Shown here: one piece after another, positions 6,365-36,550 of the stretch
Layout of the letters: every line of letters begins with the position of its first letter
Position numbering within the stretch: position 1 is the stretch's first letter
NCBI RefSeq assembly: GCF_025369935.1
Contig: NZ_CP104467.1
Coordinates: 4,657,001-4,721,000, forward strand
Direction: 5' to 3'
From: Paenibacillus andongensis
GTDB lineage: Bacteria > Bacillota > Bacilli > Paenibacillales > NBRC-103111
DNA: 64,000 nt
Made by a program: the position numbers and the translations under genes
Notes under the pieces: generated by a model
What the model was told of the DNA's origin: nothing
The model's database searches: none
The model's input: the letters and a program-made list of their open reading frames with translations, nothing else

Positions 6365-6409
6365 TTAAGCTTACGTAGAAAGTTTTGCTAAAGCAAAACT
6401 CTTAGGAGG
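6365..6409 (+). repeat. SD-adjacent hairpin repeat, copy 1
   Basis: AAGCTTACGTAGAA precedes a perfect stem AGTTTTGCT-aa-AGCAAAACT (6381-6400), joined directly to CTTAGGAGG, the ribosome binding site of the gene at 6417. Near-identical arrangements precede folD, nusB, asp23 and accC (see findings). Confidence 0.75.
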
Positions 6410-6416
6410 AATTACA

Positions 6417-6683
6417 ATGGCATACGATCCGCAGGTAGTAGATGCAACAATAGTTAGTGATAACAAAAAAAATGGTCTTTTCGAAGTCGTTGTTTCCCTG
6501 AAAGACCGCAACAAATGCCGTCTTTTCTTCGAAAGAGATTCCGAAACCGGTATCGGCAAAGTGACTGATTTGAATAGATTGATGAAAGAACCTTGCCCGA
6601 TCTGTCGCAAAGATTACCTTTGCAACTGTCTTGACCGATACAAATATTCCATTGCGGATCAAGCGCTAACCTTCATAAAATAA
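6417..6683 (+). CDS. small protein with C-terminal CPIC...CNC cysteine cluster
   Basis: 88 residues, MAYDPQVVDATIVSD... The N-terminal two thirds look like a small beta domain; the C-terminal part has CPICRKDYLCNC, four or more cysteines that could hold zinc. The ATG follows CTTAGGAGG at about 7 nt, itself attached to a hairpin repeat. Followed by a strong terminator, so it is probably monocistronic. No family name recognised; conservation in Paenibacillaceae is likely but untested. Confidence 0.7.
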   Translation: MAYDPQVVDATIVSDNKKNGLFEVVVSLKDRNKCRLFFERDSETGIGKVTDLNRLMKEPCPICRKDYLCNCLDRYKYSIADQALTFIK

Positions 6684-6693
6684 TGGCATGACG

Positions 6694-6724
6694 AACCCCC
6701 CTAGCTAACTCAGCTAAGGGGTTT
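6694..6724. terminator. bidirectional rho-independent terminator
   Basis: AACCCCCCTAGCT-aactc-AGCTAAGGGGTTT is a GC-rich stem followed by TTT on the plus strand. It lies between the CxxC gene (+) and the end of the cobalamin operon (-), serving one or both. Confidence 0.75.
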
Positions 6725-6729
6725 CATTG

Positions 6730-8121
6730 TTATTTACGGCTTTGTTGATACTGCGTACAAGCTCGAATCCATTCCCTCACCATGTTCGGATTAGATGCGA
6801 AATGTAAATGTGTATAACCGGCAACAAGATTCCCGGTGAGATACCCGTCTGCTTTGGTTCCAAGCCTGCCCTTCGATTGAAAGGCAGCTTTCACATCCGC
6901 ACCCTCATTAACTTGAAAAGTTGAATAATGAAATTCATGGCCGCGAGCCTGTTCACCTTCGGACAGCAAGAAGTTTTCCTTTACACCTATAGTCTCTCGG
7001 TAACCTAAAGCTGCTAACTTCGTCTGCATGGTAACTTTTCCGGGGATCATGCCAACCATAGGAAATTCGTTTCCTGTCGTATCTACAATTTGTTCTGTGA
7101 GGAACATAAATCCACCGCATTCAGCGAGTGTTGGTATCCCTTCCTCAATTCGGCTGCGGACAGAGGCCTTGACCCCTTCTTCGGCAGCTAATCGCTCTGC
7201 GAATTCCTCGGGAAACCCTCCGCCAATGTAAAGTCCATCTGCATCAGGAGGAACCTGTTCACCTGCAAGCGGCGAAAAGAATACACATTCCGCACCTCCC
7301 GCCTCTAACAGTTCCAGATTTTCCGGATAATAAAAGTGAAATGCGGCATCTTTGGCGATCGCGATTTTAACTCGTTTAGGTACATCTAGTTGACCATTGC
7401 TTGTAAATAAAACAGGCTTACAATCTATTGGCTCTGCCGCGGCTAAATCCAACAAAAGGTCCAAATCTATATGCGCGGTCACTTTTTCAGCCAAAAGCTC
7501 AAAAAAAGGTCGGAGCTCGCCTCGCTCAATCGATGGAACCAGACCTAAGTGCCTTTCGGGAAGTTCAATGTTCGCGTCACGAGGCAGATATCCAAGAACA
7601 GGGATACCGCATTCCTGCTCGATAGCTTGCTTTACCATTTTATAATGCCCTTCGCTGCCCGCTCGATTGGCAATAACACCTACAATGTTATCGCCTTGAC
7701 CAAACTGCTGAAAGCCTTTCACGATCGCAGCGGCGCTTCTTGCCATGCTGGCAATGTTAACAATTAACACGATCGGAGCACCTAGAATACGACCTATATC
7801 CGCAGTACTGCCTTCATCGGTCAGCGGATTTTTGCCATCAAACATCCCCATAACACCTTCGATAATCGAAATATCTGACCCTTGGCTTCCTCGTTCAAAT
7901 ATTTCCTTCACCGCTTCACGCCCAGTCATCCATGAATCCAAGTTGCGTGAAGGCCTGCCCGTTACCGCCGAATGATAGGTTGGATCAATATAATCGGGAC
8001 CGCACTTAAATCCCTGAACCGATAGTCCTCGTTTCTGTAAAGCAGCCATTATACCGATGGTCAAGGTAGTCTTCCCTACACCACTGCCGGTGCCTGCAAT
8101 GACAATCCGCCGATCCATCAC
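6730..8121 (-). CDS. cbiA: cobyrinate a,c-diamide synthase
   Basis: This ATP-dependent amidotransferase amidates the a and c acetate side chains of cobyrinic acid using glutamine. The 463 residues show an N-terminal MinD-like P-loop (GTGSGVGKTTLTIG, about residues 10-23), 'FKCGPDYIDPTYH', and a C-terminal class I glutaminase domain with the nucleophile in 'TLAECGGFMFL' (about 335) and His in the last ~30 residues. It is the last gene of the cob operon and starts within the 3' end of cbiG (4-bp overlap). Later steps (adenosylation, cobyric acid synthesis, nucleotide loop) are not encoded in this window. Confidence 0.95.
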   Translation of the reverse strand: MMDRRIVIAGTGSGVGKTTLTIGIMAALQKRGLSVQGFKCGPDYIDPTYHSAVTGRPSRNLDSWMTGREAVKEIFERGSQGSDISIIEGVMGMFDGKNPLTDEGSTADIGRILGAPIVLIVNIASMARSAAAIVKGFQQFGQGDNIVGVIANRAGSEGHYKMVKQAIEQECGIPVLGYLPRDANIELPERHLGLVPSIERGELRPFFELLAEKVTAHIDLDLLLDLAAAEPIDCKPVLFTSNGQLDVPKRVKIAIAKDAAFHFYYPENLELLEAGGAECVFFSPLAGEQVPPDADGLYIGGGFPEEFAERLAAEEGVKASVRSRIEEGIPTLAECGGFMFLTEQIVDTTGNEFPMVGMIPGKVTMQTKLAALGYRETIGVKENFLLSEGEQARGHEFHYSTFQVNEGADVKAAFQSKGRLGTKADGYLTGNLVAGYTHLHFASNPNMVREWIRACTQYQQSRK

Positions 8122-9275
8122 AAGGCACCTCGCTGCAATGGAGCTCCAGCGGAAAAGTCGAGCAATCCCACAGAAATCGTGACATTTCCTGATTTTTTCT
8201 TAACTAATGCTAGTTTGTCTTGGCCCGTATACAGCTTAACAGTCGGCTCACTTACCGCATACGCTCCTGTAAACTGATAAACAGTCTCAGAGGGAGCCTC
8301 AACGGTCACCGTGTTCAATTCTTCGGGTGTGTAGGTGATGAACTCCCAGCCGTGATTACGAGTAACCTCTAGTAAGCCTGCTTCGTCTTTCTTCAAATCA
8401 ATCGTACATACTGCTTTCACACTTCGTATGGAAAATGATAATTCTTCAAGTGTTGCTTGAATGACTTGTTCAATTTCTTCAGCTGAAGTACCGCGGTTAC
8501 AGCCTATTCCGAGAATGATAACTTTCGGCCTGTACAGCACACCGTTAGTTAGAATGCTTTCCTCCTCTGGTCCCAGAAGACGATGAGTGATGAGCAGCAC
8601 CGCATTCGGCTCACTTGCTCGACCATCCGAAATCGATGTGAACCGCCTAATATTGGCGGGTATAGGTCGCTCATGCGTCCACCAATTCGGTTCACCCGAT
8701 TCCTGAATAACAGCAATTCTCTCTTCATTAACGACAGCTGCGCTGACCGGGGTCAGTTTATCTGCCGAGTCCCAAACCCAGCCGAAACGGCGGCCGAAGA
8801 GGTCGACAGGAATCGTTTTCTGAACATCCGATGCCGTCGTAATCACAGCCCTTGCATCTATTGCAGCTGCAACCTCATGAGTTAGCTCATTAGCACCACC
8901 CAAATGCCCAGAAAGCACGCTGATGACATGCTCCCCATTATCATCAATAACAACAACACCAGGATCTTTCTTCTTATCCTGAAGTAAGGGAGCGATCATT
9001 CGCACGACGGCGCCTAGGGAAATGATGATAATAAGTCCTTGGTATGCGGGAAATAGCGCAGGAAATAATAAACGAACACTACCCTCGAACATTTGTATCG
9101 AGCGCTGCTCTTCATCACCTTTGACAAACTTGCTCATGTAATAGACATCCGTGCCGCTCATTTGTTCATTCAGCTTGCGTGCAATCTCGACACCATGCTT
9201 CGTAATAGCTACGATCGCATAGTCATTTTGTTGTCGTATAACAGGAATGACTCCCTCTTGAAGACTAATCGTCAT
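8118..9275 (-). CDS. cbiG: cobalt-precorrin 5A hydrolase
   Basis: CbiG opens the delta-lactone of cobalt-precorrin-5A, releasing acetaldehyde; it is a marker of the anaerobic pathway. The 385 residues include the N-terminal glycosyl-like region with 'GAVVRMIAPLLQDKKKDPGVVVIDD' character, the central 'ISVLSGHLGGANELT' motif, and the C-terminal CbiG domain starting 'ILGIGCNRGTSAEEIE'. It overlaps cbiF upstream and cbiA downstream by 4 bp each, implying translational coupling. Confidence 0.94.
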   Translation of the reverse strand: MTISLQEGVIPVIRQQNDYAIVAITKHGVEIARKLNEQMSGTDVYYMSKFVKGDEEQRSIQMFEGSVRLLFPALFPAYQGLIIIISLGAVVRMIAPLLQDKKKDPGVVVIDDNGEHVISVLSGHLGGANELTHEVAAAIDARAVITTASDVQKTIPVDLFGRRFGWVWDSADKLTPVSAAVVNEERIAVIQESGEPNWWTHERPIPANIRRFTSISDGRASEPNAVLLITHRLLGPEEESILTNGVLYRPKVIILGIGCNRGTSAEEIEQVIQATLEELSFSIRSVKAVCTIDLKKDEAGLLEVTRNHGWEFITYTPEELNTVTVEAPSETVYQFTGAYAVSEPTVKLYTGQDKLALVKKKSGNVTISVGLLDFSAGAPLQRGAL

Positions 9276-10048
9276 GGCTTAACACCTCTGCGGAAGCGGT
9301 GTGTAAATGATTTATCGTACAACTTGGAGCGATACTCCTCTTTGCCGTGAATTTCTGGATCCAGCGCCCAGCCTGCCAAAATCATCGCGTGTGAACGGAT
9401 ACCATGGCTCCGCATATCCTCTTCCAGCTTTCCTACCGTTGTGCGAACAATGAGCTGATCCGGCCAAGTAGCACGCTGAACAACCGCAACAGGTGTCTCC
9501 TCGCTCCACCCCGCCTCGATAAACTCGCTAACGACTTTCTTGATTAAAGTCGCGCTCAGAAACAAAGCAATTGTACAATGATGTGCGGCAAGATCACGCA
9601 ATTTCTCAAGCTCCGGCACAGGTGTACGGCCTTCGGCTCGAGTTAGAATAACCGTTTGGGTAAGGTCGGGAATCGTCAATTCTGCCCCAACCGCTGCAGC
9701 AGAGGCGAAGACCGAGCTTACGCCTGGAACGATTTCGTAGCCGATCTCCTCTTTACGCAGCAAAGCGATTTGCTCCATCGTTGCACCGAACATGGCTGGA
9801 TCTCCGGTATGCACGCGCACGACCATCTTCCCTTGTTTAAGGCGATCGACGATGATGCCCACCATTTCAACCAGCTCCATGCCGGAGCTTTTCAATACTT
9901 CTGCTTCAGGCTTTGCCTTGGCAATCAATTCATCATTCACTAACGAGTCTGTATACATGACTACGTCTGCTTGCTGAAGAAGCTTCAATCCTTTCACCGT
10001 GATCAAATCCGGATCGCCTGGTCCCGCACCAATAATATAGAGTTTCAT
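9272..10048 (-). CDS. cbiF: cobalt-precorrin-4 C11-methyltransferase
   Basis: SAM-dependent tetrapyrrole methylase of 258 residues, starting MKLYIIGAGPGDPDLITVKG, the SAM-binding loop of the family, with 'VRVHTGDPAMFGATMEQ' (about 79-95) and 'EIVPGVSSVFASAAA' typical for C11 methylation (CobM/CbiF). It begins exactly at the cbiL stop and is followed by an overlapping cbiG, which acts on its product. Confidence 0.94.
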   Translation of the reverse strand: MKLYIIGAGPGDPDLITVKGLKLLQQADVVMYTDSLVNDELIAKAKPEAEVLKSSGMELVEMVGIIVDRLKQGKMVVRVHTGDPAMFGATMEQIALLRKEEIGYEIVPGVSSVFASAAAVGAELTIPDLTQTVILTRAEGRTPVPELEKLRDLAAHHCTIALFLSATLIKKVVSEFIEAGWSEETPVAVVQRATWPDQLIVRTTVGKLEEDMRSHGIRSHAMILAGWALDPEIHGKEEYRSKLYDKSFTHRFRRGVKP

Positions 10049-10762
10049 CTATTTTCTCACCACCATCAAGGTTAAATATTCCAATTTACGTCCTTGCAGC
10101 TCTTCCACATTACGCCAAACCTCTTCCTCCGAAGAAGTGACTTTGGTTAGAACGGATGCCTTATTAACAAGTCCGAGATCGCGAAGCACGGATAGCATCA
10201 AATCAATTACTTTAGCGACTTTAATGAACACGACACAATCATGTTCTTCGATGGCTTTGCGCATCTTGTCGTAGTCGTCCGTAGCCGGGACTATGGCAAT
10301 TTGCTCATCACCATCCGCTAAGGGGATGCCCAAACGGGAAGCAGACGCGTTAATCGAAGAAATCCCTGGAATAGAGACAGCCTTTACTTCAGGGTGACGT
10401 TCGTTCATAAGACGCATCAAGTGAATGTAGGTGCTGTAAATCATCGGGTCGCCTTCCGTCACGAAAGCAACATCTTTCCCTTGGACCAAATGAGCCCAGA
10501 CACTTTCAACTGTCTTCGTCCACTGCATTTCAAGCGCTTCTTTATCCCTTGTCATTGGAAAGGTGAGCCCCATCATCTCTTTTTTCTCTGTATTCACATA
10601 CAGCTCTGTAATCGCGAGCGCATAGCTCTTGGCTCCACGCTTCTTTCTAGGGTAAGCGATGACTGGACATTCTTTTAACAATCGAAAAGCCTTAACCGTA
10701 ATTAATTCCGGATCGCCTGGACCAACACCCAAACCATACAGTGTGCCGAGATTACTCATCAC
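10049..10762 (-). CDS. cbiL: cobalt-precorrin-2 C20-methyltransferase
   Basis: 237-residue SAM-dependent methylase with '[22 protein letters not shown]' character at the N-terminus, '[18 protein letters not shown]' (about 100) and '[20 protein letters not shown]', features of the CobI/CbiL group that methylates C20. Overlaps the 3' end of cbiET by 11 bp. The first residues MMSNLG offer two adjacent start codons. Confidence 0.94.
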
Positions 10763-11987
10763 CTTTTCCTCCCTCTATATCTGTCTGCTTGCGCTGCGCT
10801 GTAATGATGTAGATTGGATTCAGTGCGTCGAATCGTTTCATATGTAGGATAGGCTTGCTGCGCGATACTTGTACAAGCGAAATCTGAGCCCCGAAACCAA
10901 CCTTCTCAAACGTCTTATCAGCCTCATATAACGTCTCTATCGTCGCTGCATTCAACACAATTCTGCCATTCGGCTTCAGTCTAGCTGCACATATTTCAAG
11001 CAGCTCTTGCATCTCTCCACCGCTTCCGCCAATAAAGATCGCATCCGGATCAGCAAAAGTATCGAGACCCTTTGGTGCTCTGCCATGCACGGCCGTAAGA
11101 TCAACACGAAATTTGGCGCTGTTTTCCAGGCAATTTTGGAGATCGTCTTCGTTTTTCTCGATGGCAAATACGGCGCCTTCACGAGCTATGCGTGCCGCCT
11201 CAATGGCTATAGAGCCTGTACAAGTTCCAATATCCCATACGACACTATCCACTTGTAACGCCAATTGACTGATACTTAAAACGCGAATTTCTTTTTTCGT
11301 GATTAGCCCTTTATCCGGTTTGCGTTGGGCGAATTGATCATCTTCAATGCCAAGCGGCCATACAGGACCTTGGGCTTGTTTTTTCAAAATAACGACATTG
11401 AGTGGTGAAAATGTTTCCGTGACCAGCTGGTCCAAATCGTACCAACCACAGCGCTCCTCGGCTCCGTCCAAATTCTCAGCGACAAAGGCCCGATATTCCG
11501 TCATGCCAAAAGAAAGCAAATAAGCCGCAATCGCACTCGGTGAATTCGTTTCATCCGTGAGCAGGGCCACTTTGTCTTTCCCGTCTATTCGCTGCGCCAA
11601 GCCCTTGATGCTCCGTCCGTGAACACTTGTGATATAAGCATCGTGCCAGCTTTCTCCCATGCGGGCAAAAGCCAATTGAATCGAGCTAACTGCCGGGTAC
11701 AGTTGTACACCCTCCAGCTTCTTCACTACATAACCGCCAATCCCGTAAAAGAGCGGGTCGCCAGAAGCCAAGATAACTACGGAACGATCTTCTTTCTGAA
11801 GCTTATTCATCAGCCCTGGCAAACTGCCTTTTATGACAACCTTCTCGCCTGTATATTCAGGAAAAAGGGCAAGATTACGCTCGCCGCCAACAAGCACTTC
11901 ACTTTCATGAATCCATTTGATATATAAAGGGAGCAGGCTCCCTTGTCCGTTATCGCCAACACCAATCACTTTCACGCTTCTACTCAT
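10752..11987 (-). CDS. cbiET: fused cobalt-precorrin-7 C5-methyltransferase / cobalt-precorrin-6B C15-methyltransferase (decarboxylating)
   Basis: At 411 residues this is a fusion of CbiE (about residues 1-200, '[13 protein letters not shown]', '[16 protein letters not shown]') and CbiT (about 215-400, class I SAM fold with '[18 protein letters not shown]' and '[12 protein letters not shown]'). The two activities methylate C5 and C15 and remove the ring-C acetate carboxyl. Fusion is common (CobL in the aerobic path, CbiET in Bacillus megaterium). It overlaps the end of cbiD by 4 bp. Confidence 0.94.
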
Positions 11988-13114
11988 TCGTATGCCATCT
12001 CTCCATTCTCGCTCCGCTTCACCATCGCCGATTTCCCTAAGAGTTCGGCTTTCATTGAAATGATCACGGTTTCTATGAAATCAAACCCGTCTCTCGCAAC
12101 TTCTTCTAGTCCAGCTAGGTTGCAGCGCTCACACAATCGTTCAAAATAACGTAAATTGCCCGTAGCCGCCATTAAATCTCCAACCTGTGAGGCTGTGTTG
12201 GCGCCTCTGATATCTTCAACAAGCGCTTCGGACGCTTCCGATTCGATCGCGACCTGCGCAAGGAACCCAAAATCAACCGGAGCGCTCTTCGAGTGCACCA
12301 TCATCACACCTTGTGCCACCTTAGAGAACTTGCCCATCATGCCGACCAACGTTACCTTACGAATGCCTTGTCTTTGGGCTTGCATCAGCGCAAACCCGAC
12401 GAAATCGCCCATCTCGATAAAAGCTTCCTCCGGAAGCTCGGGATACATGTTAATCCCGAATATTTCCGTTCGGCCGCCGGTCGAGAGTACCAGATGCTTG
12501 CAGCCGCATTTCACGGCAACGCGAATCGCTTGTGCGACACTGGCCTTGTAGGCCGCACTCGAAAATGGCACCACCGTGCCACGGGTACCGAGGATTGAAA
12601 TGCCGCCGAGAATGCCAAGACGCCCATTCAGCGTCTTCTTGGCGATTTCTTCGCCGGCGGGCACAGATACGAGCACGTCTACACCGTGCACGATCTCGTA
12701 CTGGTCAAGCACCTCCTGCACGGTATCGCGGATCATTTTCCGCGGGACCGGGTTGATCGCTGCTTGACCGATCTCAACCGGCAGGCCGGGCTTCGTCACG
12801 CGCCCGACGCCAATGCCGCCATCGATGCCGACGCCAGGCTCGGCACGAAAGCTTACGCGCACGATGATCTCCGCACCGTGCGTCGCATCGGGATCATCGC
12901 CGCCGTCCTTGATGACGGCGGCCTCACCCCACAGCTGCGTGAATGCGCAGCTGTGCAGGGCAAATTCAACCGTCTCTCCAATGGGGATACGGATGTGCAC
13001 GTGCGTTTGCGGCGCTTGCTCGATGAGCGCCACTAGTGCTGCTTTGGCTCCTGCGGTTGCGCAGGAGCCGGTGGTGTAGCCGTGGCGCAGCGGCTTGCCC
13101 GGTACTTCCTCCAT
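11984..13114 (-). CDS. cbiD: cobalt-precorrin-5B C1-methyltransferase
   Basis: 376 residues beginning with the typical '[19 protein letters not shown]' motif. CbiD methylates C1 of the corrin ring in the anaerobic route and has no counterpart with the same fold in the aerobic one. The 5' half of the gene (about 12500-13110) is conspicuously GC-rich, with many long accidental frames on the other strand, while the 3' half is near the local average. Confidence 0.94.
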
Positions 13115-13119
13115 AGGCG

Positions 13120-13770
13120 CTACTCCTTGCGCGCCGCCATGATGGACAGCGCGTTGACGGCTGCGACGGCAACCGGACTTCCGCCTTTGCGGCCAATGTT
13201 CGTGATGAACGGAATGTCCAGCTTGGCCAGTTCATCCTTCGATTCCGCTGCGGAAACGAAGCCAACAGGCACACCGACGATGAGCCCCGGCTTCGCGATT
13301 CCTTCTTTGACGAGACGAATCAATTCCAGCAGAGCTGTCGGTGCATTCCCAATCGCATAGATGGCGCCATCTGCTTCCTTGATCGCTTTGCGAATGGAAA
13401 TAATCGCCCGTGTCGTGTTCAGACGCTTGGCTTCCTCCATGACATCCTTGTCCGAAATATACACTCTCACATCGCCGCCGAATTGCTCGATACGCGGTTT
13501 ACTGATACCGACTTGCACCATCTGAACGTCGGCTACAACGAGTTTACCAGCTCGAATGGCAGCAATACCCGCTTCGATTGCCCTCGGATGAAAGACAAGA
13601 CTGCGTCCTAATTCAAAGTCCGCAGAAGCATGAATCACACGCTGAACAACCGGATATTGCTCCGGTGTAAACGTATGCTCGCCTAATTCCTCTGTAATCA
13701 TCTCAAAGCTTTTCTCTTCAATTTCTTGTGGTTGTACCGTTAAAGGTTTAAAATCCGTATGAAAATCCAT
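13120..13770 (-). CDS. cbiC: cobalt-precorrin-8 methylmutase
   Basis: 216 residues. The family motifs 'RVIHASADFELGRSLVFHP' (with the catalytic His, about residue 47) and 'GNAPTALLELIRLVKEG' / 'GVPVGFVSAAESKDEL' are clear. The enzyme moves a methyl group from C11 to C12 to give cobyrinic acid. Five bp separate it from cbiD and from cbiJ on either side. Confidence 0.95.
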   Translation of the reverse strand: MDFHTDFKPLTVQPQEIEEKSFEMITEELGEHTFTPEQYPVVQRVIHASADFELGRSLVFHPRAIEAGIAAIRAGKLVVADVQMVQVGISKPRIEQFGGDVRVYISDKDVMEEAKRLNTTRAIISIRKAIKEADGAIYAIGNAPTALLELIRLVKEGIAKPGLIVGVPVGFVSAAESKDELAKLDIPFITNIGRKGGSPVAVAAVNALSIMAARKE

Positions 13771-13775
13771 CCTAT

Positions 13776-14552
13776 TTAGCCCTCCTTATGAATGCTATCG
13801 TTTATAAATTGGATAACGCCTTCAAAGTCAGAATAATGCGTACCATATTCCAGTTCCGGTCTACCGATCACAATACTCGGAATACCCATTTCCAGCGCGG
13901 CTTCGAGCTTCTCATCCACAGCACCGACTTTCCCGCTTTCTTTTGTTATCATCAAGGTCACTTTGTAATGGTCATAAAGAGCTTTATTTAACTCTTTGGA
14001 AAAAGGGCCCTGCATAGCCACTATATTTTTCTGCTCAATACCCAGTTCTTCGCATTTCTCCATATTATCTTGGCGCGGAAGCATCCGCGCAATGAGCCTC
14101 GTATCAGGAAGCCCAATGAGACGATCAGCAAAAATCTTCAACGTTTTGCTCCCGGTTGTCAGCATAATGCTGCCACGCTTCTCAGCTGCTAACTCTGCAG
14201 CCTGTTTATAATCATCAACCGTCGTAACAAGCGCACTTTGCTCGATGGACAAGCTTTGACGTTCGAAACGCACATATGGTACTGCTGCCAGCTTAGCAGC
14301 CGCTATCGCATTCTTGGACGCTTCCTCCGCAAAAGGGTGGGTCGCATCGACAACCATGCGAAAGCCTTTATCTTGAATTAGCTGGTTCATGTTTTCCGCA
14401 GTCAGGCGACCTGTGAGTACCGGAAGCCCTTCCGCTTCCATGCTCTTCGCTGCGCTTTCGGTCACAACCGTTGTGAGCACTGCATAACCTGACGCGCGAA
14501 TTCCTAACGCCAGCTCCCTCGCGTCACTCGTACCTGCAAGAACGAGAATCAT
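13776..14552 (-). CDS. cbiJ: cobalt-precorrin-6A reductase
   Basis: 258 residues, starting MILVLAGTSDARELALG, the N-terminal motif of CbiJ/CobK reductases, with 'VVDATHPFAEEASKNA' (about 87) and 'GRPELEYGTHYSDFEG' near the end. Reduces the macrocycle with a nicotinamide cofactor. Overlaps cbiX by 4 bp. Confidence 0.93.
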   Translation of the reverse strand: MILVLAGTSDARELALGIRASGYAVLTTVVTESAAKSMEAEGLPVLTGRLTAENMNQLIQDKGFRMVVDATHPFAEEASKNAIAAAKLAAVPYVRFERQSLSIEQSALVTTVDDYKQAAELAAEKRGSIMLTTGSKTLKIFADRLIGLPDTRLIARMLPRQDNMEKCEELGIEQKNIVAMQGPFSKELNKALYDHYKVTLMITKESGKVGAVDEKLEAALEMGIPSIVIGRPELEYGTHYSDFEGVIQFINDSIHKEG

Positions 14553-15481: not shown

Positions 15482-15500
15482 CCTTTATTTCCCCCTCATT

Positions 15501-17266: not shown

Positions 17267-17344
17267 TGTTAAATTACAACAGTTAAAAAAACCAGAAGTA
17301 ACCGCTCTCTAACACTCCCTAATTCCTCGTAGGGTTATTGTGTT

Positions 17345-17545
17345 GTTGAATTAGGCAGGTCTCCTGACTTCATCATCCCCTTGCACCTTCCCAGGTTTGT
17401 CACCCAGTGGCATGCTGCAAGGAGTTACCGAATAAACGGCGATGTTCACAGTGGCGGGTCCGTGCCGGTATTTCACCGGTCTTCCCTTTTAACCATACAC
17501 CCGAATGGATCTATGGCACCTAATTCCTTTGATATGCAATTACGA
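17345..17545 (-). promoter_or_regulatory. cobalamin (B12) riboswitch aptamer
   Basis: The minus strand carries the B12 box AGTCAGGAGACCTGCCT (17353-17369), the core GCCACTG elements (complement at 17405-17411 and 17449-17455), an ACCGGTGAAATACCGGC hairpin and a 5' GAATTAGGTGCC segment near 17520. These are the hallmarks of the adenosyl/hydroxocobalamin aptamer. Together with the downstream terminator it should switch the whole cbi operon off when cobalamin is plentiful. Confidence 0.95.
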
Positions 17546-26145: not shown

Positions 26146-26147
26146 CC

Positions 26148-26600: not shown

Positions 26601-26667
26601 GTCCTTCACCTCGCCATAGTATTCGCGGATTTACCCGGAAAATCCTTTTTTATGAAGCAAGCGTAAG

Positions 26668-27547: not shown

Positions 27548-27584
27548 TGTGTTTGTGTTACTCCTATTCTTATCATCCATATCC

Positions 27585-29471: not shown

Positions 29472-29590
29472 GCTTGTTTCCTCACTTTCAATGTGAAAAT
29501 ACTGAGATCGATTTCACCATTATATCATAATTTGGGTATTTCGTGTAAAACGACTCAACACTAGTGGAAAAGTTGATCCCAATAAAGGAT

Positions 29591-30496
29591 TTAATGATCC
29601 CTCTGCATTAAGTAATCCGCCAGTTGGAGAAGCCTCTCAGGGTGTGCAATCTGTGCACGAAGCAGTGTTTCTTTGGCATGATTCGTTAAATCCTTGACCT
29701 TCTGTTCCGAGGCTTCCAACCCAATAAAAAAGGGATAAGTTACCTTCTGCTGCTTCTCATCGCTCTTCACGGGCTTACCTAACTTCTTCTCATCACCGAT
29801 AATATCCAAAATATCATCCTGAATTTGAAAAGCAAGACCAATAGCATTGCCGAATTCACTAAGTGCACTCAGTTGCGCATCCGTTGCACCGGCAATATGA
29901 CCGCCAGCACGTAAGGAGAAAACAATGAGATCACTCGTCTTATGCATATGAATAAAGGTTAATTCTTCGAGTTTGGTCATGCCTTGCTCCCCAAGCATAT
30001 CTGCGGCTTGACCGCCAACCATCCCTCTTGCTCCCGCATATATGGCAAGTTCTTCTGTAATAGCCAGCACGCGTTCTGCTGGAATGCCATGGCTTTTATG
30101 AGCTTGCGTAACGCTGAAGAATGCTTGCGTCAGCAATGCATCGCCAGCTAGAATGGCCATGGCCTCCCCGTATACCTTATGATTCGTCAGCTTGCCACGG
30201 CGATAATCATCATTATCCATTGCTGGTAAATCGTCATGAACCAGAGAGTAGGTATGAACCATCTCAATAGCTAAAGCAACAGGCATCGCAGCTTCTAGGG
30301 AGCCCCCAAGCACTTCAGCGGCTGCGAGTACCAGAATGGGGCGCAAGCGCTTGCCTCCAGCCATTAAGGAATAGTTCATGGACTCACGTAGAGAACCAGG
30401 AACGTCCCAAGCTGTAGGCAGCGCTTGAATTAAAGCTGCTTCGACCATGTCTGCATGGGAAGCAATATATTCATGAATCGTTGACGTCTTCTTCAA
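29591..30496 (-). CDS. ispA: polyprenyl synthetase (farnesyl diphosphate synthase)
   Basis: 301 residues, with first aspartate-rich motif DDLPAMDNDDYRRGK (about 93-107) and second DDILDIIGDEKKLGK (about 232). Builds farnesyl (or geranylgeranyl) diphosphate. Chain length cannot be fixed from sequence alone, although the residues before the first DDxxD fit a farnesyl-type enzyme. One bp follows xseB, so the genes are one transcript with dxs. Confidence 0.93.
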   Translation of the reverse strand: MKKTSTIHEYIASHADMVEAALIQALPTAWDVPGSLRESMNYSLMAGGKRLRPILVLAAAEVLGGSLEAAMPVALAIEMVHTYSLVHDDLPAMDNDDYRRGKLTNHKVYGEAMAILAGDALLTQAFFSVTQAHKSHGIPAERVLAITEELAIYAGARGMVGGQAADMLGEQGMTKLEELTFIHMHKTSDLIVFSLRAGGHIAGATDAQLSALSEFGNAIGLAFQIQDDILDIIGDEKKLGKPVKSDEKQQKVTYPFFIGLEASEQKVKDLTNHAKETLLRAQIAHPERLLQLADYLMQRDH

Positions 30497-30497
30497 C

Positions 30498-30752
30498 CTA
30501 ATTCCCCTTATCTTCCAAGACAGGTTGGAAAGGCTTCCTGCTCACAGTGCCTGTTTCACCTTCAACCAGCATCTCAATTTTCTTCTCCACTTGTTCAAGC
30601 TTCACACCGCACAGATGGGAGAGCCGCACGCCTTCCTGATATAACTCAATGGCTTTCTCCAATGGCACATCGCCGCTTTCTAATTGGGCAACAATGCGCT
30701 CCAGCTGTTCAATGGCTAGTTCAAAGCTAACTTCCGTTTCACTCGTAGACAT
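30498..30752 (-). CDS. xseB: exodeoxyribonuclease VII small subunit
   Basis: 84 residues; helical hairpin with the family motif 'SFELAIEQLERIVAQLESGDVPLEKAI' and 'YQEGVRLSHLC'. Partner of XseA, whose gene overlaps by 14 bp. Confidence 0.95.
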   Translation of the reverse strand: MSTSETEVSFELAIEQLERIVAQLESGDVPLEKAIELYQEGVRLSHLCGVKLEQVEKKIEMLVEGETGTVSRKPFQPVLEDKGN

Positions 30753-32109
30753 CTCTGTTCTCCTCCATCCCCGATACCTGACAATTCAATCTACCGTCCT
30801 TCAGACGAATCTTAACGAAATCCCCAACCTTCACTTGAGAGACGGAACGAATGAGCTCCTGCTCTTGTTCGTCATACGCCAAGCTGTAGCCCCGCTGCAT
30901 GACCTTCAGCGGGCTGAGGGCGTCCAAATGACGGACGCCGGACTGCCACTCCTGCTTCTTCGTGCGCAGGAGGGTCTGCATGGCCGTGAACATCTGCCGC
31001 CCCGCTGTATCCAAGCGCCGCCTTGCGGCCACGGCCTGCTCTTTGGGATTGAAGCTGGATAAGCGGCGCTCCAGCTTCAATCGCCGTTCCGCCAGCAGCG
31101 TGATACGCTGGCGCATGCGGTAACCGAGCTGCTCCGCCAGCCGGTCGAGCCGCTCCGCAGGCTGCATCAGCAGCTGCCTGCGGGGGTTCGTCAGGAACGG
31201 GGAGCGCTTCGCGCGCTCCAGCCGTTCCTGCTTGCGGCGCAGCTGCTGGAGCAGCCCGTAGTGCAGCCGCTGCGACAGCTGCGACAGCTGCTGCTTCAGC
31301 TCGTGGTGGTGCGGCACCGCGAGCTCGGCCGCCGCCGTAGGCGTCGGCGCTCTGAGATCGGCGACGAAGTCCGCGATCGTAAAGTCCGTCTCGTGGCCGA
31401 CGGCCGAGATGACGGGAATTGCGGAAGCGGCGATACTCCGCGCAACGGCCTCCTCGTTGAATGCCCAGAGCTCCTCGAGCGAGCCGCCGCCGCGGCCAAC
31501 GATGAGCACGTCGGCTTCACCGAGCCGGTTCATCACTTCGATCGCCTTGATGATCGAAGGTGCCGCCCCAGCCCCCTGTACCAAGACCGGGTACAGGAGA
31601 ATCGGAATCGACGGAAAACGCCGTTGCAGCGTGATAATGACATCACGAATGGCGGCCCCCGTCGGTGACGTGATCACGCCGATCGCGCGCGGAAACCGAG
31701 GAATCGGTTTCTTGCGCTCCGCCGCGAACAGCCCTTCCCCTTCGAGCTTCTTCTTAAGCTGCTCGAAGGCCATATACAAACTGCCGATGCCGTCTGGCTG
31801 CATCGCCGTCACATAGAACTGATACGCTCCGTCTCTTTCATATACGGAAATATTACCGCGAGCGATCACTTTCGTTCCCTCTTTCGGAATAAAACCGAGC
31901 TTCTGGTTATGAGAAGCAAACATGATGCTTTTCAGCCTGCCATCTGCGTCTTTAATCGTAAAATACATATGGCCGCTGGAATGGTGAGTGAAATTAGAGA
32001 TTTCCCCACGAACCCAAACATCCTGCAGACGGGAATCGCTCTCTAGCATGAGTTTAATATACCGGTTCAAATCCTTGACAGATAAGATCTTCGTCTCGTT
32101 TCTCGCCAT
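30739..32109 (-). CDS. xseA: exodeoxyribonuclease VII large subunit
   Basis: 456 residues. N-terminal OB-fold ('LSVKDLNRYIKLMLESDSRLQDVWVRGEISNF' region), catalytic domain with 'GVITSPTGAAIRDV' and 'GRGGGSLEELWAFNEE', 'SAVGHETDFTIADFVADLRAPTPTAAAE', and a long C-terminal coiled coil. The coding stretch ~30900-31760 is extremely GC-rich, with long accidental frames on the opposite strand. Confidence 0.96.
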   Translation of the reverse strand: MARNETKILSVKDLNRYIKLMLESDSRLQDVWVRGEISNFTHHSSGHMYFTIKDADGRLKSIMFASHNQKLGFIPKEGTKVIARGNISVYERDGAYQFYVTAMQPDGIGSLYMAFEQLKKKLEGEGLFAAERKKPIPRFPRAIGVITSPTGAAIRDVIITLQRRFPSIPILLYPVLVQGAGAAPSIIKAIEVMNRLGEADVLIVGRGGGSLEELWAFNEEAVARSIAASAIPVISAVGHETDFTIADFVADLRAPTPTAAAELAVPHHHELKQQLSQLSQRLHYGLLQQLRRKQERLERAKRSPFLTNPRRQLLMQPAERLDRLAEQLGYRMRQRITLLAERRLKLERRLSSFNPKEQAVAARRRLDTAGRQMFTAMQTLLRTKKQEWQSGVRHLDALSPLKVMQRGYSLAYDEQEQELIRSVSQVKVGDFVKIRLKDGRLNCQVSGMEENRDVYE

Positions 32110-32117
32110 ACTCTCGA

Positions 32118-32984
32118 TTAAACGCTCACATTCGCTTTAGCTGCGCGGCTAGCAGCATCAACGGTATTGCGAAGCAGCATCGTAATCGTCATTGGACCTA
32201 CGCAACCAGGTACCGGTGTAATTGCACTTGCAACCTCTTTAACCGCTTCGAAATCAACATCCCCTGTCAGTTTACCATCAGCAGGACGATTCATCCCCAC
32301 ATCGATAACGACAGCACCAGGCTTCACGTGATGAGCTTTAATCAAATGTGCTTTACCGACCGCAACAACAAGAATATCCGCTTGTTTCGTGATTTCCTCC
32401 ATATTCGGAGTACGAGAGTGAACAACGGATACCGTCGCGTGCTCGCGCAGAAGCAGCATAGCCATTGGTTTGCCTACGATGTTGCTTCTTCCTACAACAA
32501 CAGCGTGCTTACCTGCTATTTCGACTCCTGTGCGTTTTAGAATTTCGATAACACCATGCGGTGTACATGGCTTCATACCGTCTTTGCCAATCATCAAATT
32601 ACCGACATTCATGGGGTGGAAGCAATCCACGTCCTTAAGCGGATCAATTTCATCAACAACTGCTTCTTCATTGATATGCTTAGGCAGCGGTGATTGAACA
32701 AGAATGCCGTTAATTCGGTTATCGCTATTAAATTTATGAATAAGTGCAATTAACTCTTGTTGCGTTGTATGTTCCGGTAAACGATGTACTTCGGAATAAA
32801 TTCCTACATCATCACAGGCTTTCGCTTTGTTTCTTACATAGACCTGTGAAGCCGCATCTTCTCCCACAATAACAACGACAAGACCAGGCTGGTTGCCTTG
32901 CGCAGTAAGCGCGGCCGCATCCGACCTGATCTCCTCACGGATGGAACTCACGAGTTCTTTCCCATTAATAACTTGTGCAGACAT
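32118..32984 (-). CDS. folD: methylenetetrahydrofolate dehydrogenase / cyclohydrolase
   Basis: 288 residues from MSAQVINGKELV. Contains the catalytic YVRNKAKACDDVGI lysine, 'GILVQSPLPKH', and the NADP loop 'VVGRSNIVGKPMAMLL', ending 'PGCVGPMTITMLLRNT'. Supplies one-carbon units. The start at 32984 has TTAGGGGG 7 nt upstream, part of a hairpin repeat; a start at 33065 would swallow this leader. Confidence 0.96.
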   Translation of the reverse strand: MSAQVINGKELVSSIREEIRSDAAALTAQGNQPGLVVVIVGEDAASQVYVRNKAKACDDVGIYSEVHRLPEHTTQQELIALIHKFNSDNRINGILVQSPLPKHINEEAVVDEIDPLKDVDCFHPMNVGNLMIGKDGMKPCTPHGVIEILKRTGVEIAGKHAVVVGRSNIVGKPMAMLLLREHATVSVVHSRTPNMEEITKQADILVVAVGKAHLIKAHHVKPGAVVIDVGMNRPADGKLTGDVDFEAVKEVASAITPVPGCVGPMTITMLLRNTVDAASRAAKANVSV

Positions 32985-32991
32985 GTTATTT

Positions 32992-33036
32992 CCCCCTAAG
33001 AGTTTTGTGAAAAACATTTGCTTCGGGCTTGCTAAA
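32992..33036 (-). repeat. SD-adjacent hairpin repeat, copy 2 (diverged)
   Basis: Minus strand: AAGCCCGAAGCAAATGTTTTTCACAAAACTCTTAGGGGG leads into the folD start. The stem is weaker than in other copies but the ACAAAACTCTTAGG end and AAGC..CGAAGCAA beginning match them. Confidence 0.6.
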
Positions 33037-33071
33037 GCTAAATATATAAATGGTTGAATAATCAATGCTAA

Positions 33072-33530
33072 TTAGGACGGTGTTACTTTGCCCTTCAACT
33101 CTTCAACTTCTTTAATCATTTTACCAAGTACACCGTTAACGAACTTACCTGACTCCTCCGTGCCATAATGCTTGGCCAAATCAATCGCCTCATTGACGAC
33201 AACTTTAGGTGGAACATCATCTCTGTATAGCATTTCATACGCAGCTAAACGCAGCACTTCACGATCAATCCGTGAGAGCCTGTCCATCGCCCATCCTTTT
33301 AAGTACTCTTCAAGCAGTTCATCAATTCTAACTTTGTTACTGTATGTACCCTCAACGAGTTCAATAATGTAAAGAGGGTCAATTTTATCTCCGGAAAAAT
33401 TCAACTCTGTTTCATTATCATGTTCTGCTTCATGAATCGCAATTTGGACAGCTTCCTGAGGTGTAGCCTCATTCATCTGGATTTGGTAAAGGCTTTGTAC
33501 AGCAATTTCTCGTGCAACTCTGCGTTTCAT
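33072..33530 (-). CDS. nusB: transcription antitermination protein NusB
   Basis: 152 residues, all-helical, starting MKRRVAREIAVQSLYQIQMN and with 'WAMDRLSRIDREVLRLAAYEML' and 'NEAIDLAKHYGTEESGKFVNGVLGKM'. Partner of NusE at boxA of rRNA leader transcripts. Between asp23/DUF2273 and folD as in other Firmicutes. Confidence 0.96.
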   Translation of the reverse strand: MKRRVAREIAVQSLYQIQMNEATPQEAVQIAIHEAEHDNETELNFSGDKIDPLYIIELVEGTYSNKVRIDELLEEYLKGWAMDRLSRIDREVLRLAAYEMLYRDDVPPKVVVNEAIDLAKHYGTEESGKFVNGVLGKMIKEVEELKGKVTPS

Positions 33531-33536
33531 TGTGGT

Positions 33537-33577
33537 CCTCCTAAAGTTTTCGCCAGAAAATTGACTTCGTAAGCATT
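33537..33577 (-). repeat. SD-adjacent hairpin repeat, copy 3
   Basis: Minus strand: ATGCTTACGAAGTCAATTTTCTGGCGAAAACTTTAGGAGG, immediately before nusB. Stem AATTTTC/GAAAACT (one G-T pair). The AGGAGG is the nusB ribosome site. Confidence 0.7.
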
Positions 33578-33670
33578 CGATTGTGTAATTCGTCCTAAAA
33601 TCTCTTTTTACTAGTATACGTCATATTGGAATGAATCCAAACAAAAAAATCCATGGTAGAACCAGGGATT

Positions 33671-33898
33671 TTAGCGAAACATTCTCCATTTTTGCGTGAG
33701 ATAGCGCCAAATGTCTTCAAGAATGACGAAACTCTCTTTCCGATCCAGTTTGTTCCCTACATACAAGCCGAGCAGAACAATGAATCCAAAGATCAACATA
33801 TCCCAAAAACCAAAAAATAAATAAATGAAGCCGAAGAAAACGCCTGCTGCCACTCCGATCACTTTGCCCCTATGGGACGCCCACAGCTCATTCCACAT
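33671..33898 (-). CDS. DUF2273 small membrane protein
   Basis: 75 residues from MWNELWASHRGKVIGV, two membrane helices (about 13-33 and 35-52) and a basic C-terminal part ending KWRMFR. DUF2273 proteins are regularly found beside Asp23/AmaP and thought to belong to the same membrane-bound stress complex. GAGGTG precedes the ATG at 33898; two bp beyond separate it from amaP. Confidence 0.82.
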   Translation of the reverse strand: MWNELWASHRGKVIGVAAGVFFGFIYLFFGFWDMLIFGFIVLLGLYVGNKLDRKESFVILEDIWRYLTQKWRMFR

Positions 33899-33912
33899 GA
33901 GTGGGTTCACCT

Positions 33913-34473
33913 CTATTCGACTCGGCTTTTAAAAGTTGGGGCTGATTGCACGATGTTCGCTACGAATACGGTTACGGAAGCTACAGGAATGCCAGTAATA
34001 TCTTCGATGTAACTTTTCACTGTACTTTGCATCTCTTCAGTAAGTTCAGGAATCGAACTTTCCCCATCCACAATGGTTCTGATCGTAATTTCTAGACCTG
34101 ATTGATTCACCCTTACACGGGCGCGCAGATCTTTGGATCCTTTGATTCGACCAGCAGCTTTCAAAGATAAGTTCTCAACTGTTTCTATCGAGATGCGAAT
34201 ATCTCCGAAATCCGTTCGTTGGTCGATCGATGGCGCCTGAGAACGACCACGACGCAGTGTCAAAATGAGGAAGCGAACAGAGATCAGCAGCATGATCAGG
34301 CTGATGATAATCGCCGGGTACGCAAAGCTTTTTTCGAAATAAAAATTACTTAGCATTTGACCTGCTTGTTCTAACGGGATCCAGCTCGAAGCGGTGAACA
34401 AAACAACGATAGAAGCAACTAGAATAATTAGGCTATAGAGAAGTAGCAAGAGCCTGTCCACAATTTTACCCAC
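33913..34473 (-). CDS. amaP: alkaline shock response membrane anchor protein AmaP
   Basis: About 186 residues. Two N-terminal membrane helices (about 8-32 and 50-75) followed by an Asp23-like soluble domain ('ISIETVENLSLKAAGRI...RARVRVNQSGLEITI', 'VKSYIEDITGIPVASVTVFV'). AmaP tethers Asp23 to the membrane. The GTG at 34473 has GGAAGGGG about 10 nt upstream; a longer frame would run through the intergenic hairpin. Confidence 0.85.
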   Translation of the reverse strand: MGKIVDRLLLLLYSLIILVASIVVLFTASSWIPLEQAGQMLSNFYFEKSFAYPAIIISLIMLLISVRFLILTLRRGRSQAPSIDQRTDFGDIRISIETVENLSLKAAGRIKGSKDLRARVRVNQSGLEITIRTIVDGESSIPELTEEMQSTVKSYIEDITGIPVASVTVFVANIVQSAPTFKSRVE

Positions 34474-34503
34474 GTAAGCTTGTCCCCTTCCTATAGTTAG
34501 AGG

Positions 34504-34530
34504 AAACCCCCTGCAACCTGTAGGGGGTTT
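34504..34530 (-). terminator. intra-operon hairpin between asp23 and amaP
   Basis: AAACCCCCT-acaggttgc-AGGGGGTTT on the minus strand, followed by CCTCTAAC rather than a T-run. Probably a partial terminator or RNA stabiliser that sets a higher asp23 than amaP level. Confidence 0.6.
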
Positions 34531-34560
34531 CAATTGATCCATATGGATGCAGCAATCCGC

Positions 34561-34974
34561 CTATTTCACTCGATGGGCAGCTGCTGTTTCTTCTTCAACC
34601 GGTTTATCTGCCTGTTTAAAATGAACATCATGAATATGAACGTTGACTTCAACAACGTTTAAGCCTGTCATCGATTCAATGGCGTGCTTCACATTCTGTT
34701 GAATGTCGCTTGCAACTTCTGGAATTCGATTGCCATATTCAATAATGATGGAGACGTCAATGGCTGCTTCACGTTGTCCGACTTCTACCTTTACGCCTTT
34801 GGACAAATTTTTGCGTCCAAGTAATTCAGCAATGCCGCCAGCTAATCCGCCACTCATCCCCGCTACTCCTTGCACTTCCACCGTTGCCAAACCGGCAATG
34901 ATTTCGATAACCTCGGGGGCAATTTGGATGCTGCCCATGTCTGTTTTGACGTAATCCGGAGCGATTGTGCTCAT
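34561..34974 (-). CDS. asp23: Asp23/Gls24 family envelope stress response protein
   Basis: 137 residues with the family core 'GSIQIAPEVIEIIAGLATVEVQGVAGMSGGL', 'KGVKVEVGQREAAIDVSIIIEYG' and 'NVKHAIESMTGLNVVEVNVHIHDV'. Soluble, expected to polymerise under the membrane through AmaP. The ATG is preceded by AGGGAGG from a hairpin repeat. Confidence 0.93.
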   Translation of the reverse strand: MSTIAPDYVKTDMGSIQIAPEVIEIIAGLATVEVQGVAGMSGGLAGGIAELLGRKNLSKGVKVEVGQREAAIDVSIIIEYGNRIPEVASDIQQNVKHAIESMTGLNVVEVNVHIHDVHFKQADKPVEEETAAAHRVK

Positions 34975-34980
34975 TGTGGC

Positions 34981-35021
34981 ACCTCCCTAGAGTTTGTGAA
35001 ACAAACTTTCTTCGTAAGCTT
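34981..35021 (-). repeat. SD-adjacent hairpin repeat, copy 4
   Basis: Minus strand: AAGCTTACGAAGAAAGTTTGT-ttc-ACAAACTCTAGGGAGG, ending in the asp23 ribosome site. Stem AGTTTGT/ACAAACT is perfect. Confidence 0.72.
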
Positions 35022-35102
35022 TCCCTTGCTTAATCCATGGTTTGGATAAGCCATCTTAATTTATTACTATACCATTTCACCAAAAATATGACAAATGTTT
35101 GT

Positions 35103-36461
35103 CTACGATTCTGGATCATTCACGTCATGCTCTTCCAAGAATTTAATATCATGGTCACCCTTGATAAATTTCTTGTGCTCAAGCAGCTTCAAATGGAATG
35201 GAATCGTTGTGTTCACGCCATCCACCGCAAATTCGGTGAGCGCTCTTTTCATACGGGCAATCGCTTCTTCACGCGTACTTCCCCAAACGATCAGCTTCGC
35301 GATCATAGAATCATAGTGTGGAGGGATTGTGTAGCCCGGATATACCGCGCTGTCAACACGAACGCCAAAACCACCTGGCGGCAAGTAGAATTTCACTTGA
35401 CCGGCTGAAGGCATGAAGTTCCGATTCGGATCCTCCGCATTCACACGACACTCAATGGCCCATCCATTGATGCGGACGTCCTCTTGTGCAAAAGATAATG
35501 GATTGCCTTCTGCAACACGAATCATCTCTTGGATGATATCGATTCCTGTAATCATTTCGGTTACCGGATGCTCAACCTGAATTCTCGTGTTCATTTCCAT
35601 GAAGTAGAAATTCCCATCAGGACCAAGTAGGAACTCAAGTGTTCCTGCACCTGAGTAATTAACGGCTTTCGCTGCACGAACAGCCGCTTGCCCCATTGCT
35701 GTGCGTGTTTCAGCTGTCAGAATCGGGCATGGAGCTTCCTCAACAAGCTTCTGTCTACGGCGCTGAACGGAACAGTCACGCTCACCTAAGTGAATAACAT
35801 TACCGTGTTTATCAGCTAAAATTTGAATCTCAACATGCTTCATGCCTGTTAAGTATTTCTCTAAATATATACCTGCGTTACCAAAAGCATTTTGTGCTTC
35901 TTGCTGCGCGGCAGTTATTTGCTGTACGAGTGTTTCCTCATTCTCGGCAATACGGATACCTTTACCGCCGCCGCCTGCTGTCGCTTTAATGATGATCGGG
36001 TACCCGATATCTCTGGCAATGACGATCGCGTCTTCAATGTTCTCAACCAAACCGTCTGACCCTGGAATGATCGGAACTCTAGCTTCTTTCATCGTTTGCT
36101 TGGCAACCGCTTTATCACCCATCCGGCTTATGGCATCTGGGGATGGACCGATAAAGGTAATATTGCAGCTCTCGCAAATTTCTGCGAAGTCCGCATTTTC
36201 CGCTAAGAAGCCGTATCCTGGATGGATCGCATCACATTCTGTTAGCGTAGCAACACTCATCAAGTTCGTAAAGTTCAAATAGCTGTCCTTGGAGGCAGTC
36301 GGCCCAATGCAATAAGCTTCATCGGCTAGACGCACATGCAGCGCATCACGATCAGCCTCAGAATAGACAGCTACTGTATAAATGCCAAGCTCACGACAAG
36401 CTCGGATAATACGAACAGCAATTTCTCCGCGGTTCGCTATTAGGATTTTATGAAATTTCAT
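35103..36461 (-). CDS. accC: acetyl-CoA carboxylase biotin carboxylase subunit
   Basis: 452 residues from [21 protein letters not shown]-grasp enzyme with '[18 protein letters not shown]', '[21 protein letters not shown]', and '[18 protein letters not shown]'. Carboxylates biotin on AccB for fatty acid synthesis. The start at 36461 is set by AGGAGG 8 nt upstream and by homology; a start at 36533 would run through two hairpin repeats. Confidence 0.97.
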
Positions 36462-36468
36462 TATTTTA

Positions 36469-36550
36469 CCTCCTAAGAGTTTTCCGTTAGGAAAACTTGC
36501 ATCATAAGCGTGTACTGAGTTTTGCTCAAGCAAAACTGCGTCATAAGCAT
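36469..36550 (-). repeat. SD-adjacent hairpin repeats, copies 5 and 6 in tandem
   Basis: On the minus strand copy 6 (36517-36550) reads ATGCTTATGACGC plus stem AGTTTTGCT-tg-AGCAAAACT. Copy 5 (36469-36510) reads CGCTTATGATGC plus stem AGTTTTCC-taac-GGAAAACT joined to CTTAGGAGG, the accC ribosome site. Only the copy next to the gene keeps the TTAGGAGG. Confidence 0.8.

Follow-up and report, generated by a model that had tools for sequence, protein, structure and literature searches.

The 64,000-nt window analysed here (positions 4657001-4721000 of the 7,639,302-base genome of Paenibacillus andongensis, a member of the Bacillota; feature coordinates below are counted from the first base of this window) contains several copies of a short hairpin unit whose 3' end is the Shine-Dalgarno sequence (SD) of otherwise unrelated genes. 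The unit spans about 42 nt and consists of a box, TNATGCTTACGAWG, 2 nt, a stem of 7-9 bp, AGTTTTNN/NNAAAACT, with a short loop, and the junction C-TNA|GGAGG; the SD starts 3-4 nt past the stem and the start codon follows 5-12 nt past the SD. A typical representative, located at 6365..6409 on the plus strand, scores 60.1 bits with R1, a covariance model built from 11 units with the SD included. Its box, GCTTACGTAG, occupies 6369-6378, the stem arms 6381-6388 and 6393-6400, the loop 6389-6392 and the SD, AGGAGG, 6404-6409. It precedes an 88-aa gene (6417..6683, plus strand, ATG at 6417) that was labelled a CxxC gene in an earlier, sequence-only reading of the window and has no NCBIfam match at E<=1e-10.

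The other copies lie, by direct reading of the layout, in the minus-strand block accC-asp23-nusB-folD. The gene for biotin carboxylase, accC (35103..36461; TIGR00514, E 1.9e-232), is preceded by an SD-bearing unit at 36469..36513 (stem AGTTTTCC/GGAAAACT, 57.4 bits) and by a second, upstream tandem unit without an SD at 36514..36552 (stem AGTTTTGC/GCAAAACT, 30.2 bits), as the sequence-only reading had proposed. Further SD-bearing units are found at 34982..35023 (stem AGTTTGT/ACAAACT, 50.8 bits) before asp23 (34561..34974, named as in that reading, with no family scan) and at 33537..33578 (46.0 bits) before nusB (33072..33530; TIGR01951, E 5e-44). Thus, four of the five loci claimed in the sequence-only reading hold, with scores of 46.0 to 60.1 bits, whereas the fifth, at 32992..33032 before folD (a name likewise taken from that reading), is decayed: it retains a 5-bp stem, GTTTT/AAAAC, and an SD of the form AGGGGG, and scores 10.8 bits (E 0.94). 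We read it as a probable relic because the relative G016 holds fuller units at folD. Across 74 aligned units (alignment A5), 7 of the 11 letters of the box consensus, TGCTTACGAWG, are conserved at 90% or more; the tetranucleotide 2 nt before the stem is mostly GAAG or GATG and seldom GTAG, and the internal stem is the sole conserved inverted repeat of the unit.

The covariance-model searches of the genome and its relatives that this reading had called for show that the unit is far more widespread than the window. R1 gives 139 matches genome-wide at E<=10. A second model, R2, which is free of the SD (48 equal-length units cut before it), detects 127 matches at E<=1; some 20 of these are antisense echoes of the palindrome, and at E<0.01 at least 97 units remain, which were carried forward and grouped in 78 arrays, tandem units recurring with a period of about 40 nt. 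These counts are lower bounds because the best 150 of 5,697 first-look R2 candidates in this genome were scored. No fewer than 75 of the 78 arrays end at an SD and a start codon. For 65 of them a script finds the SD, the start codon and an open reading frame (ORF) of at least 60 codons directly after the last unit, and in another 10, read by hand, one more unit or a short spacer leads on to the SD and start codon (e.g., nuoI, NAD kinase, pdhB and rpmJ, with spoVM recognised by eye). The true exceptions are the arrays at genome positions 208455, 3621327 and 7190849, and no copies at rRNA or tRNA genes were seen among the 78 arrays. The proposal that this short repeat carries its Shine-Dalgarno sequence with it is therefore supported with an SD-free model, although the seeds of R2 were R1 hits, so that some SD bias remains and an SD-free subfamily could have escaped. 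A box-plus-SD pattern, GCTTACGA-gap-CTNAGGAGG, matches 358 times in 30 genomes of the genus and not once in the reversed control.

The compensatory changes noticed in the stems of the window are borne out in three sets of units. Alignment A6 comprises 48 ungapped units selected by length and not fitted to structure; in it, 99.2% of 384 cells are paired, compared with 91.0% after shuffling, and the covariation score is 0.237 versus 0.081, a value reached in 0 of 500 shuffles. Both sides change at 4 pairs, and sliding the partner by 1-3 columns reduces pairing to 21-56%. The model-fitted alignment A4 (128 matches, 124 of them distinct) agrees on covariation. In a set of 122 distinct units picked by the box and the SD, with the hairpin ignored, 894 of 946 cells form Watson-Crick pairs (shuffled mean 757, maximum 779), and new stems appear, e.g., AGCAATCT/AGATTGCT. 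Stem covariation alone does not prove selection at the RNA level because a perfectly kept DNA palindrome would look alike. An alternative helix, NNAG/CTNN, that would compete with the main stem is only weakly enriched across 86 units (matched by 23 of 5000 shuffles) and was rejected, the excess being largely due to one variant, GCC/GGC, met 9 times.

A hairpin so close to the SD might be taken for an RNA thermometer or an SD-sequestering riboswitch, the former having been suggested from the sequence. The SD, however, lies outside the conserved stem, which ends 3-4 nt before it in the aligned units, and the units of the window have no Rfam match at the gathering cut-off, so this is by far the least credible of the explanations considered here. 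Two other candidate roles were also discarded. A leader peptide, ATGCTTACG..., does not keep its frame, with a stop near the SD in 13 of 46 scorable units, and insulation of the SD by the unit has a small predicted effect.

The positions of neighbouring ORFs suggest that many of the units lie inside operons. For 57 of the 96 R1 arrays, an ORF of 70 codons or more on the same strand stops no more than 150 nt before the array (by the ORF-length rule, independent of annotation), which implies that many copies are intercistronic. The units of pyrR follow a sequence that by eye resembles an attenuator terminator, and those of leuS in the relative G037 follow an apparent T-box, so that there they would be part of the read-through mRNA. 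Each copy would make up the final 40-45 nt of its mRNA leader or intercistronic region. A terminator was rejected as a role for the unit: there is no T run after the stem, and a scan of 32900-36700 gave 3 terminator-like sites, none of them at a unit. The promoter scan of this interval reported 10 sites where chance predicts 7.8; 3 of the 10 overlap a unit or the folD relic; one promoter-like site, 35094-35066, lies upstream of the asp23 unit, in a scan whose total is near chance. A promoter inside some units is conceivable but has no support in these results.

The genes downstream have no common pathway, in agreement with the first impression from the window. Of the 92 gene products with a start codon, 40 were scanned and 36 match NCBIfam models at E<=1e-10, some of them under the curated cut-off and several represented by sequences shortened by the end of the locus. 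They include NuoI, TrxB, TpiA, the N-terminal half of transketolase, NAD kinase, LonB, RuvB, RecJ, MltG and PdhB; RsmH, SigE, LspA, PyrR, PyrF, HslU, MiaB, LeuD and GpsA; and a MecA-family protein, RibBA, NusB, AccC, threonine synthase, GltD, L36, L24 and IspD, among others. This diversity bears on the possibility that the unit is the binding site of an RNA-binding regulator, a protein or a small RNA, that would govern a post-transcriptional regulon of about 100 genes, with tandem units bound cooperatively beside the SD. The box conserved as unpaired sequence, the arrays with their regular period and the fixed distance to the SD would all fit, and there is a conceptual precedent in the TAACTGA repeats of Beggiatoaceae, the nearest one that we found. 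In one genome of this group, according to the portions of the report at hand, 169 sets of tandem repeats lie mostly just upstream of start codons, show no pattern in gene function and were proposed to act in translation (MacGregor 2015, PMC4679880). Those repeats are heptamers, and of the intergenic regions that bear them only about 10% also have an SD (PMC4679880), whereas the present units are 42 nt long, have a covarying stem, are fused to a strong SD and differ from TAACTGA in sequence. Against a regulator site stand the absence of a common pathway among the scanned genes and, in relatives, the 5S, tRNA and 23S neighbours (see below), which do not fit translational control; we regard such a site as quite unlikely.

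The unit is a short interspersed hairpin family found across the order, with a 3' end that is usually the SD of the next gene. At E<=0.001 and with 108 candidates scored, R2 has hits in 40 of the 60 relatives, among them 30 of 30 in the genus, with 3 to 99 matches each. In the order, with strict filters and 21 candidates scored, matches at E<=1e-4 were obtained in 224 of 296 genomes, which belong to 27 of the 48 genera covered. Many genomes of family f10 have one or two R2 matches, not necessarily linked to an SD. The exact consensus pattern occurs in 48 stretches, all of them from Paenibacillus (e.g., P. alginolyticus, P. phytorum and P. aceris).

Within the genus, comparison of orthologous leaders in 20 relatives and of a cell-division region of 20 kb in 20 genomes, the present one among them, with examples read by eye, reveals that units are gained, lost, swapped and tandemly multiplied. 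At asp23, the relatives G002, G003 and G016 have an additional unit between AAACTC and TAAGGAGG; at accC, only the right arm and the SD remain in G005, G007, G010, G011 and G024; at sigE, the number of units varies from one to at least four. At divIVA, the box and the hairpin are kept in 15 of 20 genomes and G029 has neither, while in G007, G011, G013 and G024 the box is lost and the right arm or an altered hairpin remains with the SD. No unit is found within 150 nt upstream of sepF or ileS in the 20 genomes of the cell-division comparison (0/20 exceptions). As a separate observation, the nusB leader of G018 (L146), in which the repeat unit is absent, has a different hairpin, AAGTTGGG/CCCAACTT, directly before TAGGAGG; a hairpin at that place may matter apart from the repeat.

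In other genera, the association with start codons recurs. In G105, 57 distinct arrays were examined. After removal of five artefacts, 48 reach an SD, a start codon and an ORF by script; in 39 of these the distance from the last detected unit is at most 12 nt, and in 9 it is 39-79 nt, the spacing that one or two more units would occupy. The arrays at spoVM and at position 4057796 reach an SD, a start codon and an ORF by eye, 2 arrays lie at the 5' end of tRNA-Ile, and 5 are inverted at the 3' end of 23S rRNA. One array, L251 (G105:C1:1735298-1736459), comprises 11 units of 42 nt in tandem, 10 of which are identical; it ends at TTAGGAGG and ATG and is indicative of recent tandem expansion. In G200, the SD, start codon and ORF are present at 25 of 27 loci examined out of 53 matches. 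In the genomes G045 and G058 of family f10, the loop of many units measures about 30 nt and the repeat period about 65 nt; the examples of this type that were seen end at an SD. In family f10 and in g6, some copies lie within larger repeated elements. By eye, such elements of about 150-200 nt in other genera enclose the box and the hairpin, have longer-range inverted repeats and lie away from SDs (L155, L159 and L163 in G034; L158 in G058; L165, L175 and L180 in G045; L181 in G031); L155, L158 and L165 have no Rfam match at the gathering score.

Some genes bear the unit in more than one genus. The present genome shares it with G105 at hslU, asp23, gltD, rpmJ and the families 5762520, 4452557, 7267037 and 1935367 (8 of 48 by BLAST, 52-95% identity), with spoVM added by eye, and with G200 at ruvB, trxB, sigE, gltD and the 5644674 family (5 of 25, 55-90% identity), compared with chance expectations of about 0.7 and about 0.4, respectively, if the present genome has about 6,700 genes; these are BLAST-supported pairs and not genome-wide orthology. 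Such retention is compatible with either descent or selection, which these data cannot separate.

In some relatives, units also adjoin stable RNAs. They end 4 nt before the boundary of 5S rRNA (located by Rfam on 5 of the 11 filled places) at 8 of 11 5S places in G175 and at 3 of 7 in G037; 3 5S places of G175 have no adjoining unit, and 2 spacers of G037 have no unit. In G105, the unit ends 3 nt before tRNA-Ile (delimited by ARAGORN) at two places, with the junctions CTCTTA|GGGCCC and GTCTGA|GGGCCC at the tRNA start. Locations just before 5S rRNA and tRNA-Ile are those expected of a processing or boundary element. In five rRNA operons of the same genome (L351, L353, L356, L359 and L360), an inverted unit abuts the 3' end of 23S rRNA, the boundary having been checked on L351 and L353. 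Filled and empty rRNA operon spacers of the same genome permit a search for target duplication, and none is seen in the two informative pairs, where 4 and 6 nt are replaced: in G175 (L285/L286), CGAAAAATCCC|GTTTGG when empty versus CGAAAAA-unit-GTTTGG when filled, and in G037 (L279/L281), GCGTAGTTTACATTC versus GCGT-unit-CATTC. The flanks of a third pair (G037, L273/L271) are too different for such a reading, and the comparison is ambiguous at accC and nusB, with a possible partial repeat of the ribosome-binding site on the left at nusB.

These observations must be weighed against the view that the unit is a selfish or neutral short interspersed repeat, akin to REP, BOX or RUP: a palindrome spread by mobility or recombination and tolerated at SDs because it restores the SD with its own 3' end. 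On this view, the hairpin would be a DNA recognition structure and the covariation a matter of palindrome upkeep. The sequence-only reading had likewise raised a mobile palindrome, which is possible in view of the copies that come and go between species. Between close relatives, copies are gained and lost, exchange one stem variant for another and multiply in tandem; the array of nearly identical units in G105, the copies in rRNA spacers, the stem variants GC/GC and CC/GG, separated by double changes with few intermediates, and the inclusion of the box and hairpin, by eye, in larger repeated elements are all as such a repeat would have them, and the sharing of genes between genera could be plain descent. 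The REP/BIME sequences associated with RAYT combine a short palindrome, a conserved 5'-foot tetranucleotide, GTAG, tandem arrays, high copy number and compensatory stem changes, and they are intergenic, mainly at 3' ends. The present units resemble them in the palindrome, the tandem arrays, the copy number and the compensatory changes, and perhaps in the foot tetranucleotide, here GAWG, but are located at SDs in sense orientation, and no intact RAYT was found in the genome; a REP system driven by such a transposase was therefore rejected. The only PF01797 match in the genome, covering 56-121 of 121, is in L182 (G000:C1:5329424-5329624), where a 124-aa ORF reads as a probable degenerate remnant of an IS200-type (Y1) element. 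The Correia/NEMIS palindromes of Neisseria and ERIC of Yersinia are also interspersed hairpins, linked to mRNA stability, but are longer, have terminal inverted repeats and, as a rule, are not fused to an SD.

Pneumococcal BOX, RUP and SPRITE are small interspersed structured repeats with a variable number of modules, too; as described in the available part of PMC3049150, they are over-represented between convergent genes and share features of miniature inverted-repeat transposable elements, whereas the present units are bound to start codons, with 75 of 78 arrays in sense orientation at an SD, and show no target duplication. An origin from phages or plasmids was rejected: one 141-nt array query matched none of the 50,697 phage records and none of the 72,556 plasmid records searched. 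A selfish repeat accounts for the turnover and not for the near-exclusive sense location at SDs. It is a serious contender, close to the explanation that we prefer, albeit one that we would not expect to prevail.

The explanation that we favour, tentatively and at somewhat less than an even chance, is that the unit serves as a portable module for 5'-boundary formation or processing. A single-stranded site for an endonuclease or another protein, a stabilising hairpin and an SD would together define where a cistron begins. The A/U-rich single-stranded box would be the site of recognition or cleavage, with RNase Y as the leading candidate endonuclease; the hairpin would then shield the newly made 5' end, the strong SD 3-4 nt after the stem would load ribosomes, and inner genes of operons would thereby gain a stable, translatable message of their own. 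The box is compatible with an RNase Y processing site, having a CG/A dinucleotide before the hairpin. In Bacillus subtilis, as far as the consulted sections of PMC11780869 go, RNase Y favours sites with a G/A dinucleotide in unstructured, A/U-rich RNA, and at cggR-gapA its product is stabilised by a hairpin farther downstream; Bacillus mRNAs also gain stability from hairpins or ribosome-binding sites close to their 5' ends (PMC3997798, seen in part). The parts of the unit match these parts of Bacillus mRNA maturation, which is why a processing module is preferred. The cggR-gapA site and the leaders with STAB-SD or a 5' hairpin similarly combine a single-stranded region, a downstream hairpin and an SD; in these sources, they are described locus by locus (PMC11780869, PMC3997798), whereas here one modular sequence occurs about 100-fold and its cleavage is putative. 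The persistence of hairpin and SD without the box at divIVA in G013 and G024 also counts in favour, as do the arrays' location at SDs and between cistrons, the stem covariation, the sharing of unit-bearing genes across genera and the copies before 5S rRNA and tRNA-Ile.

Several observations weigh against a processing module. Fast loss between close species implies that the unit is dispensable at many genes. The consensus of RNase Y is weak in the part of PMC11780869 available to us, so that RNase Y alone does not explain a conserved box. The five inverted copies in G105 lie at the 3' end of 23S rRNA, where no 5' end forms, and G037 has 2 further units in mid-spacer. The predicted accessibility of the SD is just a little greater with the unit than in shuffled leaders (0.41 versus 0.36; higher in 55 of 92, p=0.01). 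Wobble G.U pairs exceed A.C mismatches, an excess that would indicate RNA from this strand, 18:3 in the model-fitted A4 and 10:5 in the unfitted set; the latter is not significant and, for that reason, the asymmetry is not used as proof of RNA function.

The junction C-TNA|G is identical at SD sites, tRNA-Ile and 5S rRNA. This might reflect a transplantable RNA 5'-boundary cassette that the RNA machinery reads as "functional RNA starts here" and that was copied before SDs and, in relatives, before tRNA-Ile and 5S rRNA, a bolder proposal that we consider unlikely but worth stating. Copying from leader to leader could proceed at the RNA level, e.g., if a reverse transcriptase switched templates where RNAs end, with recombination as the next step. 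The close contact of units with mature or trimmed ends of RNAs, and that of inverted units with the 23S rRNA 3' end, would be in keeping with this route too.

Apart from the units, the window contains a cobalamin riboswitch identified by Rfam (17337-17538, minus strand, 99.4 bits) and, at 46904-46953, a 24-bp imperfect inverted repeat with a 2-nt gap, possibly a terminator.

At the gathering score, Rfam has no family for the units of the window, and four array loci gave sub-threshold matches to eukaryotic families only. The searches made of open-licence PMC for Paenibacillus repeats or leaders and for similar repeats brought up no description of the unit; the accessible text of an RNA-seq study of Paenibacillus riograndensis (PMC5670726) treats ribosome-binding-site motifs and riboswitches and does not mention it. 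Such a signal is easily overlooked because each copy is only about 42 nt long and the stems differ. The presence of this hairpin unit, often in tandem, before the ribosome-binding sites of many unrelated genes, and its recurrence in most of the genomes sampled in the order, point to a possible portable module of RNA control or processing, of which we found no description. If the units act, about 100 genes per genome, many of them inside operons, would be under one modular RNA signal, and the many natural replicates in each genome, together with presence/absence variants in sister species, would be suited to the study of how a hairpin and a single-stranded box beside the SD shape translation, stability and the ends of mRNAs. 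Should they be selfish instead, they would represent a repeat that targets ribosome-binding sites, which is unusual. In both cases, the units merit annotation and may offer ready-made leader parts for Paenibacillus.

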